A stretch of DNA of 24,153 bases. Source: a virus. The notes under the pieces are model-generated. The model was given only the letters and a program-made list of their open reading frames with translations, was not told where the DNA came from and did no database searches. The translations under genes and the position numbers were made by a program. Positions within the stretch are counted from its first letter, which is position 1. Every line of letters begins with the position of its first letter. The stretch is from positions 1 through 24,153 of the IMG/VR virus record IMGVR_UViG_3300037225_000071, one strand, 5' to 3'. Shown piece by piece: positions 4,433 to 15,815 of this stretch.

Positions 4433-5090
4433 TTTGTAAATTTATTGGTAAATCAGAACTCATAGTAAACGAGATTTTTTGTTGATTGTAAAATCCTTCC
4501 TCCTGCGTCATTGTATGGTCATCAATAACAACCGAACTAATCCCTAATTGATTTAAAAGTAACGATTTTACAGGAATTGAATCCGGGATGTTAAAAATAT
4601 TATTAAGCGTGTCAATTAAAATTAAAGGATACGATTCGTCATCTGTCGCTATTATCGCGGTTACATCAATTTTATAGTCACCACTTGAAATGAACTGCTT
4701 AACTGTGCCATCTCGCCCCTCAAGAACTGTTTTAATTGTATTTTTCGGCCTACTGATAGTCATTACGCAACATTCAAGATTAACTGAATCCTGTGTCTGA
4801 ATATTTCCATCAATATCAGTATAGGTAAAAAATAAAGGTGAACTTCCAAGAACCAGATTAGACATTACAGGAGTACCATAAATACTCGATCTATTCGTCT
4901 GTAAACTTTGCTCATCAAATGCAGGTAAGCCAATTGATCCCGGTTTATTGTATAGTTTACTTTTTAAAAGTGCAACACTTTCTCCAGCGCCGTACGCAAA
5001 CTTTTTAATTACAGATACAGCCGCCCCTTTTGCGATAAAGGAAACGCCATAATATAATTCACTTCTCAGCCTTACTTCTTTATCGCTCAT
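4419..5090 (-). CDS. DUF6046-like tail/baseplate protein (Mu gp43 position)
   Basis: The 223-aa protein is encoded between the tape measure and hub genes, the position of Mu gp43 (gpN). Residues about 105-150 contain CCVMTISRPKNTIKTVLEGRDGTVKQFISSGDYKI. The G-R-D/N-G-T-V-K-x-F-I-S-x-G-D-Y pattern matches my recollection of the DUF6046 family of Bacteroidota phages. Those proteins resemble tail-tube-related domains that join the tape measure end to the hub. It shares four bases with the tape measure gene (5087-5090) and overlaps the hub gene by 14. The role is inferred from place and family resemblance. Confidence 0.6.
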   Translation of the reverse strand: MSDKEVRLRSELYYGVSFIAKGAAVSVIKKFAYGAGESVALLKSKLYNKPGSIGLPAFDEQSLQTNRSSIYGTPVMSNLVLGSSPLFFTYTDIDGNIQTQDSVNLECCVMTISRPKNTIKTVLEGRDGTVKQFISSGDYKIDVTAIIATDDESYPLILIDTLNNIFNIPDSIPVKSLLLNQLGISSVVIDDHTMTQEEGFYNQQKISFTMSSDLPINLQSVSS

Positions 5091-6817
5091 ATATTAGCTG
5101 TTATCTGTACATCATTCAAAGCATTAGCTAAAGCATCTACCATTAATTTTTCAACATCCGCCGCAGCCTCTTTTATTGTATTTGAAGTTACGTTAAATGA
5201 TTCTACCATTTTTGTTATGTTCACATTAAATACTTTTGGGGCTGCGCTTTCTATTTTAGTTAGACTTGTTGTATCTCCACCTATTCCGGCTGATGTTGCT
5301 AAATCTTTTACACCTTCTTTTTTTAATAGCATTATAGATTTACCTAAACCATCAATTAATCGTTTATATTTTGATACGATATATTGACTTGCGCCTAATT
5401 GCTTATTGCCTTCTGCTATTGTTTTTCTCATTTGATTTTCAGCAAAGTTGGAAAACTCACCTTTGTCTGATGCTTTTTGAAATTGAGCTAAAAACGAAAT
5501 ATTATGATCTTTTATTTGTCTTAATTTCTCCTGTTGCTGTTCATAAAGTCTTTGCGTTTCAGCAACCTGATTTTGCATATTTGTAAGCAACTCTGATTTT
5601 GCTGTACCGCTTAAATCCTTACGATGCAACATTTCAGATTGATATGTCGAGTATTTAGATTGCGCTTCTTTATATGTTTTGTTTATGTTTAAAAGCCCTG
5701 ATAACATATCCCTTGTATCAGCGGCCTCTTTTCTCATACTTATTAGTTTTGCTACAACTAATCCTAATCCAACAATTAACGCACCTATTCCAGTTGCTGC
5801 AATAGCGGAACCTAATCCGTAAAACTCAACTATCGTAGCCTTTAATCCAAATAATGCTGTAGCTTGTAATATTTCTTGAATTTTTAAAGCGGCACTATAA
5901 GCCTTTGTCCATAACACTACTGATTTTAGACCTATTGTATAAATTGTAAAAGCAGCCCCAATCCCTAATAATATTTTACCAAGTAAAATAAATGTTGGAA
6001 TATTCCTTTTTATAAATTCAATAAATTCACCAAATTTTGCCATTAACTGTTTAAACATAGGGATCAACGATAGCTTTATTTGTTCCACTGTTTTACCTAC
6101 TGATATTTTTATATCTGTCATTGCCTTTGATGCCATTATCAACTTACCTTCATCGGTCATTGCAAAGCCTTTGGCTTGTCCCCCAAATTCTCGATTCAAC
6201 TCTTTTAAAATAATTCCTTGGGCTTCCATTAACTTGCCTTGCTGTTGCAATTGCTTAACTGTTGCTTTTTGCTGATCAGTAAAAGCTACGCCCTGGCGTT
6301 GCAATCTCATCATACCTTGTGCCGGGTTGTTCATTGCTTTGCCAATTGCTAAAGCAGCACTTGACATGTCTGTTTTAAAAAAGGTGGCAAAATCAGCAAC
6401 GGCCTCAGTTGTTTTCTCAAACATTTTACCTTTAATCTCAGGAAATGAAAGTAACATACCCTGAGCGTCCAATATTTCTGCTCGACTTGCGGTAATAGAG
6501 CGACTTAATGATTTTGCTTGTTCTTCAATTGCCTCACCACTTAACCCGGCTGCATGACGTGTTGAAGCTAGTACAGTATTAACACGCATAACGGCAGCCT
6601 CTAACTTATCTTCTGCCTCTTCTGCTGAATGTAAAAACTCTATAAGCCCTCCCACGGCAAAAGCACCAACCATTAACCCGGCTACTGATTTGAGCGTATT
6701 TTTTAACCCACCAACCTGCTCATCAAATGCTTTAGTTTGCTTTTGAATCCCGGAAAGTTTACCAGAAAATTCATCGCGTAATTTTATGAGATAACTTATA
6801 TCGCCGCCTATTGTCAT
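5087..6817 (-). CDS. Tail tape measure protein
   Basis: This 576-aa protein has tape measure features: long amphipathic helices with Gln-rich heptads (QLQQQGKLMEAQ about 189-200, QRLYEQQQEKLRQ), and hydrophobic helices near 43-60, 274-297 and 333-359. It also has the prophage tape measure segment LASTRHAAGLSGEAIEEQAKSL followed by the FATFFKTDMSSAALAIGKAMNNPAQGMMRLQRQG region (about 144-176). The protein fixes tail length during tube polymerisation and is ejected at infection. At about 1.5 angstrom per residue, 576 residues predict a tail near 85 nm (a rule of thumb). The gene directly follows the frameshifted chaperone, as in lambda and Mu, with a hairpin between them. Confidence 0.9.
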   Translation of the reverse strand: MTIGGDISYLIKLRDEFSGKLSGIQKQTKAFDEQVGGLKNTLKSVAGLMVGAFAVGGLIEFLHSAEEAEDKLEAAVMRVNTVLASTRHAAGLSGEAIEEQAKSLSRSITASRAEILDAQGMLLSFPEIKGKMFEKTTEAVADFATFFKTDMSSAALAIGKAMNNPAQGMMRLQRQGVAFTDQQKATVKQLQQQGKLMEAQGIILKELNREFGGQAKGFAMTDEGKLIMASKAMTDIKISVGKTVEQIKLSLIPMFKQLMAKFGEFIEFIKRNIPTFILLGKILLGIGAAFTIYTIGLKSVVLWTKAYSAALKIQEILQATALFGLKATIVEFYGLGSAIAATGIGALIVGLGLVVAKLISMRKEAADTRDMLSGLLNINKTYKEAQSKYSTYQSEMLHRKDLSGTAKSELLTNMQNQVAETQRLYEQQQEKLRQIKDHNISFLAQFQKASDKGEFSNFAENQMRKTIAEGNKQLGASQYIVSKYKRLIDGLGKSIMLLKKEGVKDLATSAGIGGDTTSLTKIESAAPKVFNVNITKMVESFNVTSNTIKEAAADVEKLMVDALANALNDVQITANI

Positions 6818-6832
6818 AACTTATAATTAAAG

Positions 6833-6862
6833 AAGCCCGGCCTATTAAACCGGCACGGGCTT
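6833..6862. terminator. GC-rich hairpin between chaperone and tape measure genes
   Basis: The stem AAGCCCG-GCC pairs with GGC-A-CGGGCTT around a 9-base loop, with one bulged A. Ten base pairs, mostly G-C, stand out in this AT-rich DNA. On the plus strand it is followed by TTATTTTA. On the minus strand, the direction of the genes, it comes right after the frameshift ORF stop (6863-6865) and is followed by CTTTAATT. It could act as an intrinsic terminator or attenuator in the tail operon, or as an mRNA processing or stability element between the two genes. The weak U-tract in the gene direction argues for partial termination. Confidence 0.55.
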
Positions 6863-7470
6863 TTATTTTAGTAAAACATTGTCAAGCAATCCTATTTCTT
6901 TCCAAAAATTAAAGTCAACTTGAAACTTTGCAAACTCTTCAATAGTGTCAGGATCTCTTTTATAAAAGTAGCGGTGTAGGCTCATAAAATGTTTCATTTC
7001 TATCTGTTGGCCGTTACTTATTTTTAAAGAACCTATATCATCTATTTTTTTTTAATTTCTGCGCTCATTGGGATTACATAATCAGTAGCCAATTGAATAG
7101 CCAGCATAATCATTGCACGCCCATTTGTATCCAGCTCTGAATCATACTCAACACAGCATGTATCAAATATCACCTTCCCGGCTGTTGCTAAATCCATGTT
7201 TCCGTTAATAGACATTAAGGCACCTAACCCTAAAGCCAATTGTTTAAATTGCGGCTCTTGAATTACTGCTTTTAATGTTTTTTGTGGAACTGGTTCAGCG
7301 TTTATTTCTTCAATCGCGACCTCAAGTTCATCTTCAATTAACCCTTTTAACTTAATTTCTTCAATGGTTTCCAGTTTCTTGGCATTATACTCATCTGATG
7401 AAATTGCATCAAAAGTTATTTCGTAAACTTTACTTTTGAGATTTGGATTTGATATTGTTTTGAATGCCAT
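6863..7470 (-). CDS. Tail assembly chaperone frameshift fusion (gpGT-type, -1)
   Basis: The 142-aa chaperone ends ATT AAA AAA AAA TAG. A -1 slip on the A9 run continues reading for 60 codons (IDDIGSLKISNGQQIEMKHF...FNFWKEIGLLDNVLLK) to a TAA at 6863-6865, giving a product of about 202 aa. This is the arrangement known for lambda G/GT and Mu gp41/gp42-type genes. There the short and long proteins, in a fixed ratio, coat the tape measure protein before tube assembly. The extension fills the otherwise unexplained 180 bases before the tape measure gene and is followed at once by the hairpin. Alternatively, an ATG at 6997 could start an independent 44-aa protein in the same frame. The frame is visible in the sequence, while slippage itself is inferred. 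Confidence 0.75.
7042..7470 (-). CDS. Tail assembly chaperone, short form (gpG-like)
   Basis: The 142-aa product (MAFKTISNPNLKSKVYEITF...) lies between tail tube and tape measure genes, the fixed place of gpG/gp41-type chaperones. The middle part contains hydrophobic helical stretches (FKQLALGLGALMSINGNMDLATAGKVIFDTCCV, about 75-107) and the end is MLAIQLATDYVIPMSAEIKKK. It stops at TAG right after an A9 run. Its start codon shares base 7470 with the tube gene stop. Most ribosomes should terminate here, giving the short G form, with a minority shifting frame into the 60-residue extension. Confidence 0.75.
   Translation of the reverse strand: MAFKTISNPNLKSKVYEITFDAISSDEYNAKKLETIEEIKLKGLIEDELEVAIEEINAEPVPQKTLKAVIQEPQFKQLALGLGALMSINGNMDLATAGKVIFDTCCVEYDSELDTNGRAMIMLAIQLATDYVIPMSAEIKKK
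7045..7053 (-). promoter_or_regulatory. A9 slippery site for -1 ribosomal frameshifting
   Basis: Nine consecutive A residues on the coding strand form the last three in-frame Lys codons, directly before TAG. The in-frame grouping A-AAA-AAA is a canonical X-XXY-YYZ heptamer on which both P- and A-site tRNA-Lys can re-pair one base back. The stop codon next to it may add pausing. No strong stem-loop is obvious in the 10 bases after the site, so if a stimulator is needed it must be weak or distant. Confidence 0.65.
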
Positions 7471-7889
7471 TATCTGTAACGAATTTCAGGAGTTATAAAA
7501 GAAAACTTCATTTTCATATCAACATCTCCGGTCGCGCCACTCACACCGTCATTCGTAAACTTAATGTTTTTAATAATGTGTTTAATTAATTTCTGTGGGT
7601 TTCCGAAAATTACCACAATGTCAAATAAAGGAAGCTTAAGAAATGAGCCATTTGGCGCAATATCCCTGATTGCTTCGCTGTCATTCATTGCTATTTCGAT
7701 GTCGCCTTTGCCCTGAATTGTTCCACTTCCATAACTTACAGCTCTGTTGCCAGTCCCGAAGTTTAGCTTTGAATCTTGTTCCTCAGTATAACTTATCGAA
7801 CTAACAGAAGGAGTTGGAACGCCCAAGAGAGATACGATAATATCTGCATATTCATAAGCCTTGCCATTTATCAAAGGAATTGAATTCAT
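7470..7889 (-). CDS. Tail tube protein (Mu gpM-like)
   Basis: This 139-aa protein follows the sheath gene with two bases between them and precedes the chaperone, the standard sheath-tube-chaperone order of contractile tails. Its strand-rich sequence (YADIIVSLLGVPTPSVSSISYTEEQD, then GDIEIAMNDSEAIRDIAP, and VDMKMKFSFITPEIRYR at the C-terminus) fits the small beta-barrel tube fold. The segment SVSSISYTEEQDSKLNFGTG is typical of Mu-type tube proteins in Bacteroidota phages. It polymerises as hexameric rings around the tape measure. Assignment is by synteny, size and composition. Confidence 0.75.
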   Translation of the reverse strand: MNSIPLINGKAYEYADIIVSLLGVPTPSVSSISYTEEQDSKLNFGTGNRAVSYGSGTIQGKGDIEIAMNDSEAIRDIAPNGSFLKLPLFDIVVIFGNPQKLIKHIIKNIKFTNDGVSGATGDVDMKMKFSFITPEIRYR

Positions 7890-7891
7890 AG

Positions 7892-9541
7892 TTATTTAAT
7901 TTGTGTAGTGAAACCATCGTTAATTATAATATTCCGGGCAATGCCTGTAGGTATTTCCTGAATCGTAATCTGAATTTGTGATGTTGAAATCACATTCTGA
8001 TTATCCGGGATAGTAACCTTCATTGCTGAAAGTTCCTTTGCTGTTACCATTGCATCCAAAGGAATAGTACAAAGATTTTCCCAAATTGCAATTGTATCTA
8101 CTGTTAAAGTACCATCTGCATTTACATACAATGGACTTGCAAGCTTAGGAATAATAGCAGCATAAACGCCTCTTTCTGCTTTGTCCATTGTTCTGTTCTT
8201 TTCAATAAAACAAAAATCATTTGTTTTTGCTATTGCAGTCCAGGAATCATTGAAGAAAGATCCTGATAAACCAACGATCTTATGTAAAAAAATATAATGC
8301 TGATCGTTGATTGCTCCAAGCTGTGTATCTGTTACATTACGTAAAAGATCGCCTGTTACAAATCCAGGATTGTCGTAATCTGTTCCTATGCTCACATTAA
8401 ACTTTTCAGGCCATGCGATGCAGTCTGAAACTGATGCAATTGAAATAGCGCCTAAAAGATTACCTGCGCCTGATACTGAATAACCCATAATAACCTTTAG
8501 GTTAGGCTGAATCAAAGTCCAATATTGAGTATTCCAAACCGATTGACCTAAACTTGACTGGATAGCCTGATAACAACCAGCGCCCCATGTAACCTTATCG
8601 CCTGTTGAGTACCCTGCTGTTGCTGAATAGGCAGCTTCGTAATAGTTGCCCTCTGCATGTATTGCAACGCTTACGTTATTACAACTTAATGTTGCAAGGT
8701 CAGAAAGTGCAGCTAATGATCCAGCAGATAAATCTGCATCTACAATTATATTTGATACTGGTTTATGTGCAGCTTGCAATGTAGTAGCTACTGCTTGCGT
8801 GGCTGTTACCTGCGAACTTGCAAAAGCAACCCCGTCAAGTGAAACAATCATTTGACGAATTGTTCCCTGTGAGTAGTTTTGCATAGTTGTAATTTCTGCA
8901 CCTGAATAAGTTGGTACGGGAAAAACACCTACGTATAACTGACCATTGGGATTTATTTCAAAGAAATCACTTATTTTTTTATGCCAAACCGCAAATTGTG
9001 ATCCGGTTGCTGTTGTTAATTGGGTTACTGTTGCTGTTGCTGTTCCTGCGCCACCTATTGCAGCCACACTTGTAAATGTTATACTAACAGTTATTGCAGC
9101 CTTACCCCATCCTGTCGGTGGAACTATTGTGACATTATATGTTGAACCGGCAGAACTAAACCCATGATATTGAGTATTAGCATTAATCGCTGCCCTTAGA
9201 GCTACAGCCTCAGCAGTTGCATCTGCGTATGGTGTTGCCGGAACAGTTACCTGACCTAAAAGAACACCTGCGAAAAATATTGAATCAATATCTCCGGCTG
9301 CGCCTTTTAGAGTTATAGCAACATTTCCACCTGTAGCCTTTACCTCATCTGAATAGTCAGTATCAATACCCAAATTTTCAGCATCTGCAACAGAAAAGAC
9401 TTGTTTGATCTTATTGTTGACATTGAATCCAGATGGATAGGTATTTGAATAAAGAACCATTGCAGAAATAAAGTCTTGTCCTGGCAATGTTTGACCCAAT
9501 CCTGTCTTACTTCTGAAAAACGTTACATTATTTAAAGCCAT
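7892..9541 (-). CDS. Contractile tail sheath protein (Mu gpL / DUF2586-like)
   Basis: The 549-aa protein is the largest tail structural protein next to the tube gene, as expected for the sheath. Residues 1-63 form the N-terminal arm and first domain. The C-terminal region has KNRTMDKAERGVYAAIIPKL (about 448-467) and AKELSAMKVTIPDNQNVISTSQIQ with a final strand (about 501-549), matching the handshake domain of DUF2586-like sheaths. Two insertions are visible: residues about 70-180, rich in Ala/Thr/Val, and 303-345, which carries a CBM5/12-like motif (YSTGDKVTWGAGCYQAIQSS...YWTLI). These are likely surface-exposed. It overlaps the preceding small gene by 14 bases. Confidence 0.85.
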   Translation of the reverse strand: MALNNVTFFRSKTGLGQTLPGQDFISAMVLYSNTYPSGFNVNNKIKQVFSVADAENLGIDTDYSDEVKATGGNVAITLKGAAGDIDSIFFAGVLLGQVTVPATPYADATAEAVALRAAINANTQYHGFSSAGSTYNVTIVPPTGWGKAAITVSITFTSVAAIGGAGTATATVTQLTTATGSQFAVWHKKISDFFEINPNGQLYVGVFPVPTYSGAEITTMQNYSQGTIRQMIVSLDGVAFASSQVTATQAVATTLQAAHKPVSNIIVDADLSAGSLAALSDLATLSCNNVSVAIHAEGNYYEAAYSATAGYSTGDKVTWGAGCYQAIQSSLGQSVWNTQYWTLIQPNLKVIMGYSVSGAGNLLGAISIASVSDCIAWPEKFNVSIGTDYDNPGFVTGDLLRNVTDTQLGAINDQHYIFLHKIVGLSGSFFNDSWTAIAKTNDFCFIEKNRTMDKAERGVYAAIIPKLASPLYVNADGTLTVDTIAIWENLCTIPLDAMVTAKELSAMKVTIPDNQNVISTSQIQITIQEIPTGIARNIIINDGFTTQIK

Positions 9542-13246: not shown

Positions 13247-13797
13247 TTCAGTATATTATCAATTCTTTTCTTTAGCAAATCTAATATTTTTCTATCTAAT
13301 TTAGCACTATGTCCAATATAATTACGTTGTGGCATTGTAAATGAATGACTTCCTATTGATGTTTTTTGTTGAAACTTAGCCTTTTTTGGTCTTACAAACC
13401 TATTTTTTTTACCTCCAAAACTTAATGTATGCTTATGTTCTGGTATTGTTACTTCGCCACCTTCGTTATGGATTTCAGCATATTTGATGCCACGTGTACC
13501 TATTACTATTCCATCAAACTTATAAGACAATAAAGAAACAGAACGTCTTAAATGACCTGATTTAACCAATATTGCCCGTATTTTATTTGGGTTACGTTTA
13601 TCACTTCGGTCTTTCGTTGATCTTTTCTCCCAACCACTTTCACTAGCATCTGTTTGATGTCCTCCTTTTACAAACCCTTCTATAAAATGGTTCTGCGCAA
13701 GCTTACCAATTAATAACGGAAGATCATTTCGCTTTTCAGTAGTAAATTTATTAATTATTTTCTGAAAATCCCAATTACCGAACTTTTCTATTTGCAT
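13243..13797 (-). CDS. Phage virion morphogenesis / tail completion protein (Mu gpG, P2 gpS type)
   Basis: This 184-aa basic protein carries the hallmarks of the tail completion (virion morphogenesis) family. These are an N-terminal helical region, a W-E-K-R segment (DASESGWEKRSTKDRSD, about 50-66) and LVKSGHLRRSVSLLS (about 77-91). Further along come GIKYAEIHNEGGEV (about 103-116) and a C-terminal MPQRNYIGHSAKLDRKI (about 154-170). Residues 117-145 are an Arg/Lys/His-rich insertion. The family joins tail to head. Its stop overlaps the tail terminator gene by four bases, and its ATG shares base 13797 with the MuF gene. Confidence 0.8.
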   Translation of the reverse strand: MQIEKFGNWDFQKIINKFTTEKRNDLPLLIGKLAQNHFIEGFVKGGHQTDASESGWEKRSTKDRSDKRNPNKIRAILVKSGHLRRSVSLLSYKFDGIVIGTRGIKYAEIHNEGGEVTIPEHKHTLSFGGKKNRFVRPKKAKFQQKTSIGSHSFTMPQRNYIGHSAKLDRKILDLLKKRIDNILK

Positions 13798-15815
13798 TAA
13801 TTCATGTGTGAAATTTCGTCTTTCCTAAACTTCTTTTGACCTGTAAAAACTATACACAAACTCACCGGATCTTTTTCACCATCATCATTTATCGCGTGCC
13901 AGCGCTCCTTTAATTCGCTAAAAGAAATAAAGCATCTGGTATAGCTTGAAGGGTCTTCAAATATTATTTTATCTTTTTCATACCCAATTGCTACAACGTA
14001 ATGACCGTCAGTATAATCAGTCGCCCATTCTTTAGGACTTTTTGAATCGCGCCACGCCTGTAAAAGTACAATGACTGGTTGATTATTCTTAATATAAGGG
14101 GTCAATTCTTTTGGTTCTAACCCACGCTTAACCTCAGCTTTTATATTTTCTTCACTTTCTGAAACCTTTACAATATCTTTAACATAAACGCCATTATCAA
14201 ATATATCAGTATTTTTTGCATTTAACTTTTTAAGCAATTCGTCTTCCCTGCGTTCATATCCGTAATAAGTTAATACTGATTGCAAGGCACTTGCGCCACA
14301 ATCATAATTATAAAGCTGTCTTAACTCTGGGAATTCGATCAAATGAATAATATTTGAGTGAATTGAATCTGTAATTGGTATATTAGCAATATTTTTTATT
14401 AATTTTTTAGGAAATTCCAATTTTGGTTTTTCTATCAATCCGAATGTCCTACCGTGCCTACTTTCAATAAATGAAAACCCATCTAAGTTATTTTCATGTA
14501 AAATCTTTTTTAATTTAATCCCATTTTCAAAATCGCTAGTTCTTTGACTATGTAATAAATATAATCTATCCGGTTCATATAAATATTTTTCTTTGTTATT
14601 TAATATTTCTTGATTTTTTTGTATTATTTTTTCATATTTATCAATATCTTTTTTTGATTTAGCGTATTTTAAATCAAATTCAGCATTTTCAATTTTTGCT
14701 CTTTCATTTGAAAATAAGTAATCTTCAAAGTCCTTCGCTATTAATTTTTGAGCATTTATATTACTTAAATCTAATATATTTCCATTTATTTTAGCTTCTG
14801 AGATAAAATCGCCGTATGTTTCAGCTAATTCTTTTGAGGGTGTCATAAAATAAATCTCTGCTGGATTCTTTGATATTTGACCCTTATTATAATTAGTTTC
14901 TATAAACTCACTAGGGTTTTTCTTTAATTCTATATAGTTTTCCTCCGTATCACCTCTATATACATAGCCTTTAAAATTAAATGCAGACTTATTATCAAGT
15001 AATTCCTTAACATCTTTTTCATATTGTGTTAATTTACTTTCTGGCAAGGGTAGATTAAAATTATTGTCTTTAAATTCCTGATATTTTTCAGGCACATCAA
15101 AATAAGGGTGTGCAGAAGAAAATGCAATATGCTCTTTGCCGGGATTAAATCTGAACTCGTCATTAATATCAACTTTATCCAGCCGCTCTTTTACTTCGCT
15201 TTGTGGAGTCGTATTATCTTCATCACCTGATATGACTATGCAACGGCAATTCCATTCTAAAGGCGGCGTATTTTCGTCCCAAAACGGATCGTCTACAGGT
15301 AAACAAATACCATCTAATGCCTGATGGTATTCTCTTACCCTATCATCACCAACTGTTCGTAATGTCAAATAAGGCAATGTTTCTTTTTGCGCTTCAAATT
15401 CCTGCCATTGTTCTGCACTTTGTGCTTGACTAAATGCTGTATTCATTTCTGTTTTTAGCCAGTCTTCATTAAATTCATTCCAAATAGTCTCAGCCTGTTC
15501 TTTGAATTCAGAAAATCCTATTTTAAAACCTTCGTCATCAAATACTTCTTGCTGTATCTCATAGACTTCTTGAAATGTCTTTGCAGCCGAAAAACGATAG
15601 ATGTTTTCTTCAAATGATTGTTTCATTTTAAAATCACCAACATCTTTAGTTGATATATCGTTTTTGAGGTTAGTTGATTTAAGTCCTTGCTTAACTGATT
15701 TTAATAATTCTTTTGATATAACGACATAAAGATTATCAGGTAATTTATTTAACGTGATATGTCCGTTATAAATACCTTCTAAAACATTATTTTTAATATT
15801 TGAAGAAATTATCAT
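13797..15815 (-). CDS. MuF head protein with ADP-ribosyltransferase-like and C39-like peptidase C-terminal domains
   Basis: The 672-aa protein is much longer than a plain MuF head protein. Residues about 75-192 form the Mu F/SPP1 gp7 domain, ending with RTVGDDRVREYHQALDG...PPLEWNCRC. Residues about 280-465 begin with YVYRGDT, continue with IYFMTPSKELAETYG and end NLDGFSFIESRHGRTFGLIE. This is the strand order and motif style of ADP-ribosyltransferase-like toxin domains fused to phage MuF. Residues about 490-660 form a papain-fold C39-like peptidase with Gln500, Cys506 in YDCGASAL, His605 in DGHYVVAIGY and Asp621 in FEDPSS. MuF-linked polymorphic toxins ride in the virion and may enter the next host. 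The central part is Lys/Asn/Ile-rich and more AT-rich than its neighbours, suggesting acquisition. The toxin call is inferred, and no immunity gene is seen next to it. Confidence 0.8.
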   Translation of the reverse strand: MIISSNIKNNVLEGIYNGHITLNKLPDNLYVVISKELLKSVKQGLKSTNLKNDISTKDVGDFKMKQSFEENIYRFSAAKTFQEVYEIQQEVFDDEGFKIGFSEFKEQAETIWNEFNEDWLKTEMNTAFSQAQSAEQWQEFEAQKETLPYLTLRTVGDDRVREYHQALDGICLPVDDPFWDENTPPLEWNCRCIVISGDEDNTTPQSEVKERLDKVDINDEFRFNPGKEHIAFSSAHPYFDVPEKYQEFKDNNFNLPLPESKLTQYEKDVKELLDNKSAFNFKGYVYRGDTEENYIELKKNPSEFIETNYNKGQISKNPAEIYFMTPSKELAETYGDFISEAKINGNILDLSNINAQKLIAKDFEDYLFSNERAKIENAEFDLKYAKSKKDIDKYEKIIQKNQEILNNKEKYLYEPDRLYLLHSQRTSDFENGIKLKKILHENNLDGFSFIESRHGRTFGLIEKPKLEFPKKLIKNIANIPITDSIHSNIIHLIEFPELRQLYNYDCGASALQSVLTYYGYERREDELLKKLNAKNTDIFDNGVYVKDIVKVSESEENIKAEVKRGLEPKELTPYIKNNQPVIVLLQAWRDSKSPKEWATDYTDGHYVVAIGYEKDKIIFEDPSSYTRCFISFSELKERWHAINDDGEKDPVSLCIVFTGQKKFRKDEISHMN

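Follow-up and report, generated by a model that had tools for sequence, protein, structure and literature searches.

The window analyzed here (the whole stretch of 24,153 nucleotides, positions 1 to 24,153 of IMG/VR virus record IMGVR_UViG_3300037225_000071) very probably encodes a tail assembly chaperone pair of the lambda G/GT type, in which a -1 slip at the end of the chaperone gene G would join it to a second frame, T. The same arrangement of frames was found in a broad family of related phages and prophages, most of which keep both a slippery heptamer shortly before the G stop and an open -1 extension behind it.

The minus strand of the window is a contractile-tail module with a portal of Mu type (PF06074), MuF, a Clp-type protease, sheath, tube, chaperone and tape measure, as well as further tail genes. 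The order around the site is sheath-tube-G-T-tape measure, all on the minus strand: a tail sheath of 549 aa (DUF2586; 7892..9541; PF10758, E 2.4e-35; phrog_907), a tail tube protein of 139 aa (7470..7889; phrog_4579 tail protein, E 2.5e-16, with a match to phrog_9206 too), G of 142 aa (7042..7470), T (6863..7051) and a tape measure protein of 576 aa (5087..6817; phrog_27166, E 7.9e-30). The tube stop codon overlaps the start of G (TAATG). Elsewhere in the module, the MuF head protein domain (PF04233) and a C-terminal C39-like peptidase domain (PF13529) share a single 672-aa ORF (13797-15815, minus strand).

G ends in ...EIKKK, and its 3' end reads ATT AAA AAA AAA TAG, with the A9 run at 7045..7053 and TAG at 7044-7042. 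The zero-frame heptamer A_AAA_AAA (7051-7045) is followed immediately by the stop codon and represents a canonical X_XXY_YYZ site inside the overlap of the two frames; slippery sites are conserved at the equivalent place in relatives. The -1 frame is open for 62 codons (7051-6866) up to TAA at 6865-6863, that is, two re-read lysines and 60 new residues, and a GT fusion would have about 202 aa if made; the +1 frame meets an immediate stop. The original prediction of a slip on A9 into a 60-codon -1 extension, followed by a hairpin and then the tape measure gene, was thus borne out by the frames. No other A9 occurs on either strand of the window, whereas dinucleotide shuffles give 6.3. The same A9 is read in contig L003, which is otherwise identical to the window apart from a single mismatch over 4573 bases and ends 7 bases past the run.

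When the window chaperone or tape measure served as a single query, the scans yielded an identical contig at most, and a tblastn search of phages with G gave no match; sheath alignment was the way in to relatives. With the window sheath as query, we found the nearest relative, L004 (sheath 65% identical), and, by sheath alignments, distant relatives among IMG/VR contigs, a Saprospiraceae MAG, Bacteroidota genomes and prophages, and cultured Flavobacterium and Winogradskyella phages. G was located in each locus mostly by script and the frames were then measured; clustering by shared tripeptides gave 53 clusters, with three set aside by eye (L088 among these). A heptamer (A or T at Y) within 30 nt of the G stop together with a -1 extension was present in 48 of the 53 clusters compared with 4 of the 357 other ORF ends in the loci (p 6e-52 by Fisher test, a value that ignores relatedness). 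A long -1 extension is unremarkable alone, since one of at least 45 codons follows 116 of the 357 other ORF ends in the family loci. Five clusters (L013, L018, L046, L157 and L158) and the set-aside L088 lack a canonical heptamer and keep the extension. In six further loci with tube paralogues the true G lies further on, and both A9 and T are present. As far as sequence can tell, this family-wide retention of the -1 frame arrangement settles the G/GT interpretation.

L004 keeps both the A-run and the -1 frame, which had been proposed as a check on the prediction: its chaperone ends ATA AAA AAA AAT TAA, and its T matches that of the window at 21 of 45 residues (47% identity; BLASTP 2e-14 in a single comparison). 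Across the relatives the heptamer is A_AAA_AAG, A_AAA_AAA, A_AAA_AAT, A_AAA_AAC, G_GGA_AAC, G_GGA_AAG or A_AAT_TTA, and the -1 shift persists. Most A-type sites lie 0-3 nt from the stop, and GGGAAAC sites lie 12 nt from it. The original prediction described the pure A9 site against a stop codon as a simple variant; closeness to the stop codon proved to be the norm in the family.

Several related loci depart from the common order. Tube-like genes occur as a tandem pair in L106, L109, L110, L127, L129 and L132, which also have a small gene of 126-130 aa after the sheath. In four others (L012, L046, L048 and L157) T is retained although a long tape measure ORF is missing from the 550 nt or so that follow it, and the next long ORF resembles a baseplate-type gene. 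Five prophage-like loci (L038, L040, L041, L042 and L043) have sheath, tube and a G-like gene with neither a heptamer nor an adjoining tape measure gene; no -1 T extension was recognized in them, the long -1 frame in L042 being the next gene. The start of this next gene is conserved and its end varies, much as in a cargo carrier, and the five loci possibly represent a tail-derived injection system that lost T and the tape measure together.

T behaves as a conserved protein. Its alignment of 41 sequences contains a common motif, roughly ALxRxxFKxDPxxLxDxExAxxxxELxW, and dN/dS in 14 unsaturated close pairs of relatives was 0.04-0.58, within the range of G, which indicates that T is under purifying selection in these pairs. 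The window and L004 are too diverged for such an estimate, their synonymous sites being saturated. A PHROGs search with T gave no match.

An alternative is that T is a small gene of its own, with termination-reinitiation at an internal ATG and no fusion product. GenBank does list T separately in pippi8-1 and fF4, and in the window an ATG at 6997 opens a 44-aa ORF (6863..6997, minus strand), whose independent translation had been named as a finding that would count against a frameshift. However, this ATG is not conserved in relatives and L004 has none at the corresponding position; 13 of 53 T frames contain no ATG whatsoever, and only 18 have one that leaves at least 38 codons. A separate gene is therefore not the general solution, and it would also leave the slippery heptamer and the -1 register unexplained. 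We consider this reading highly improbable, and the 44-aa ORF is probably not an independent gene. A homopolymer error, with a true A10 and one continuous ORF, would likewise dispense with a shift; the source is a metagenomic assembly, and L003 breaks 7 bases after the run. Yet L003 also reads A9, the frame break recurs at other heptamers in cultured isolates, and no relative with a fused single frame was noticed. Such a family-wide arrangement disfavors sequencing error, which seems extremely improbable.

G lies between the tube (major tail protein) gene and the tape measure gene, and it is this position that makes it a tail chaperone. Pfam, NCBIfam and PHROGs provided no chaperone name for it; phrog_19076, whose function is unassigned in PHROGs, covers 38 of 42 relatives, the window not among them. 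A profile of 30 G homologues matched PDB 3fgx (RBSTP2171) with E 4e-4. The AlphaFold model of G (mean pLDDT 74) had no significant Foldseek match in the PDB, and its sole VIA-align row was the HK97 tail assembly chaperone 2ob9, a weak hit (Z 2.8 over 79 residues). Judged from the profile and the model, the link of G to a known chaperone fold appears weak. At the equivalent place in a Meiothermus phage, the depositors annotated an XkdN-like gene.

According to the proposed mechanism, most ribosomes would terminate at TAG and release G, whereas a minority would move back by one base at A_AAA_AAA, where the lysine tRNAs in the P and A sites would re-pair with AAA AAA, and would continue for 60 codons to give GT. 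We infer from the frames and their conservation that the fusion is made, and the ribosome is likely to be the main slipping machine because the shift is also placed at sites without a long homopolymer (G_GGA_AAC, G_GGA_AAG and A_AAT_TTA). By analogy with lambda, G would coat the tape measure protein, and tube subunits would be recruited through the T part of GT. Given such a division of labour, the ratio of G to GT would matter for tail assembly.

The original prediction had noted no obvious downstream stimulator, and folding agreed with this in the window (z +0.7 for the 55 nt downstream of the slip site; z -1.9 for 105 nt). Over the family, the 55-nt downstream stretches were mildly more structured, with a mean z of -0.85 compared with 0.02 for random stretches of the same loci (p 2e-5). 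Low-level shifting would presumably need no strong stimulator. Upstream Shine-Dalgarno-like motifs are absent in the window and scattered in relatives. A terminator-like hairpin (6833..6862, minus strand; -17.7 kcal/mol, z -2.8) starts at the base after the TAA of T and sits between this stop and the start of the tape measure gene at 6817. Similar hairpins, often with a T-run, lie past the T stop in L004, L007, L075, L077, L079 and L084. Hairpins at this place may lower tape measure expression.

The relatives supported the frameshift reading, but one route to the same product was absent from the original prediction: RNA polymerase might slip on A9, as in dnaX of Thermus thermophilus, so that A10 transcripts would yield GT by normal translation. 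In living bacteria, a stretch of 9 A or T is enough for efficient slippage by RNA polymerase (PMC5009743), so in lineages with A9 the polymerase could do the slipping alone or alongside the ribosome. The distribution of run lengths is in keeping with this idea. Slip sites carry A6 in 18 clusters, A7 in 1, A8 in 4, A9 in 17 and A10 in 1, whereas A7, A8 and A9 runs elsewhere in the same loci number 141, 46 and 7, respectively; A9 is thus strongly over-represented at the sites (Fisher p 1.6e-16, uncorrected). In the window, a run of at least nine is present at the frame junction and no other A9 exists, and coding sequences in many bacteria often avoid nine-base A/T runs (PMC1088944). Parsimony on the G+T tree placed about seven changes in the presence of A9 or longer runs, at least three of them on well-supported (starred) branches, and therefore the A9 class does not go back to one inherited event.

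On the other hand, homologues shift at A6G or GGGAAAC, sites at which the polymerase would not be expected to slip, and the codon phase at the A9 sites preserves an in-frame A_AAA_AAA. A second, tandem heptamer is present in 15 of the 17 A9 clusters, so the ribosome alone could explain the long run. Moreover, a run length conserved among all homologues has been used as the criterion for transcriptional slippage (PMC1088944), and here it varies, with A9 in 17 clusters and A6G, A7, A8, A10 or GGGAAA in the others. A9 would be favored either by a contribution of polymerase slippage or by the two tandem heptamers that it offers to the ribosome. Taken together, we regard polymerase slippage on A9 as a real possibility, albeit an unlikely one, and ribosomal slippage as the preferred mechanism. 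It is rather doubtful that this one phage family uses two machines, with the ribosome acting in the A_AAA_AAG and G_GGA_AAC lineages and largely RNA polymerase in the A9 lineages, including the window. Our searches of the open-access literature gave no paper describing a tail chaperone gene with transcriptional slippage. Among the few hosts whose lysine tRNAs were considered, one host of an A9 locus (G092) has a CTT tRNA-Lys, a sample too small to predict A9 versus A6G.

The known dnaX pair offers a parallel to these two routes. The E. coli dnaX heptamer is A_AAA_AAG. The homologous genes of T. thermophilus and E. coli use transcriptional slippage on A9 and ribosomal slippage, respectively (PMC5009743). 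The shift in dnaX shortens the product, whereas that between G and T extends it, and polymerase slippage in the window is a possibility only.

Frameshifting in G/GT genes has long been known, and the window pair is an addition to the known lambda G/GT family. The slippery site of lambda is G_GGA_AAG, and this lambda-type heptamer is also present in phage fF4. Among long-tailed phages the -1 frameshift is a widely conserved feature; in lambda, the tape measure protein is bound by G and the tube protein by the T part of GT (PMC5009743). For lambda G/GT and the conserved -1 frameshift, PMC5009743 and PMC2628397 cite Levin 1993 and Xu 2004; in the latter, which cites Xu 2004, Mu itself is reported to use a -2 frameshift. 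The window resembles lambda in the position between tube and tape measure, the short G with a -1 extension and the heptamer near the G end. It differs in that its G and T have no sequence match to a named chaperone family and that A-runs lying 0-3 nt from the stop make up most sites among its relatives.

Winoviridae phages Peternella_1, pippi8-1, lotta8-1, FPSV-S1 and fF4 share with the window the gene order, a homologous sheath and conserved G and T; their heptamers are A_AAA_AAG or G_GGA_AAG, in contrast to A9 in the window. The core genes of Winoviridae include Clp protease, major capsid, sheath and others (PMC8776804). In our comparison, confined to the sheath and the Clp protease, sheath similarity to the window was at most 37% and a Clp protease was present in the window. 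The Winoviridae paper (PMC8776804) does not mention a frameshift. T is omitted from the Peternella_1 and FPSV-S1 records and appears as a separate hypothetical gene in those of pippi8-1 and fF4, and the fusion is missed in the annotation of these four cultured relatives examined.

Our data extend the G/GT rule to a broad range of contractile-tailed phages of Bacteroidota, whose G and T both lack a match to a named chaperone family. Nature provides here a series of about 50 lineages that differ in the slippery site and share the product. With cultured Flavobacterium phages representing A6G and prophages representing A9, this series lets ribosomal and polymerase slippage at A9 be tested directly.
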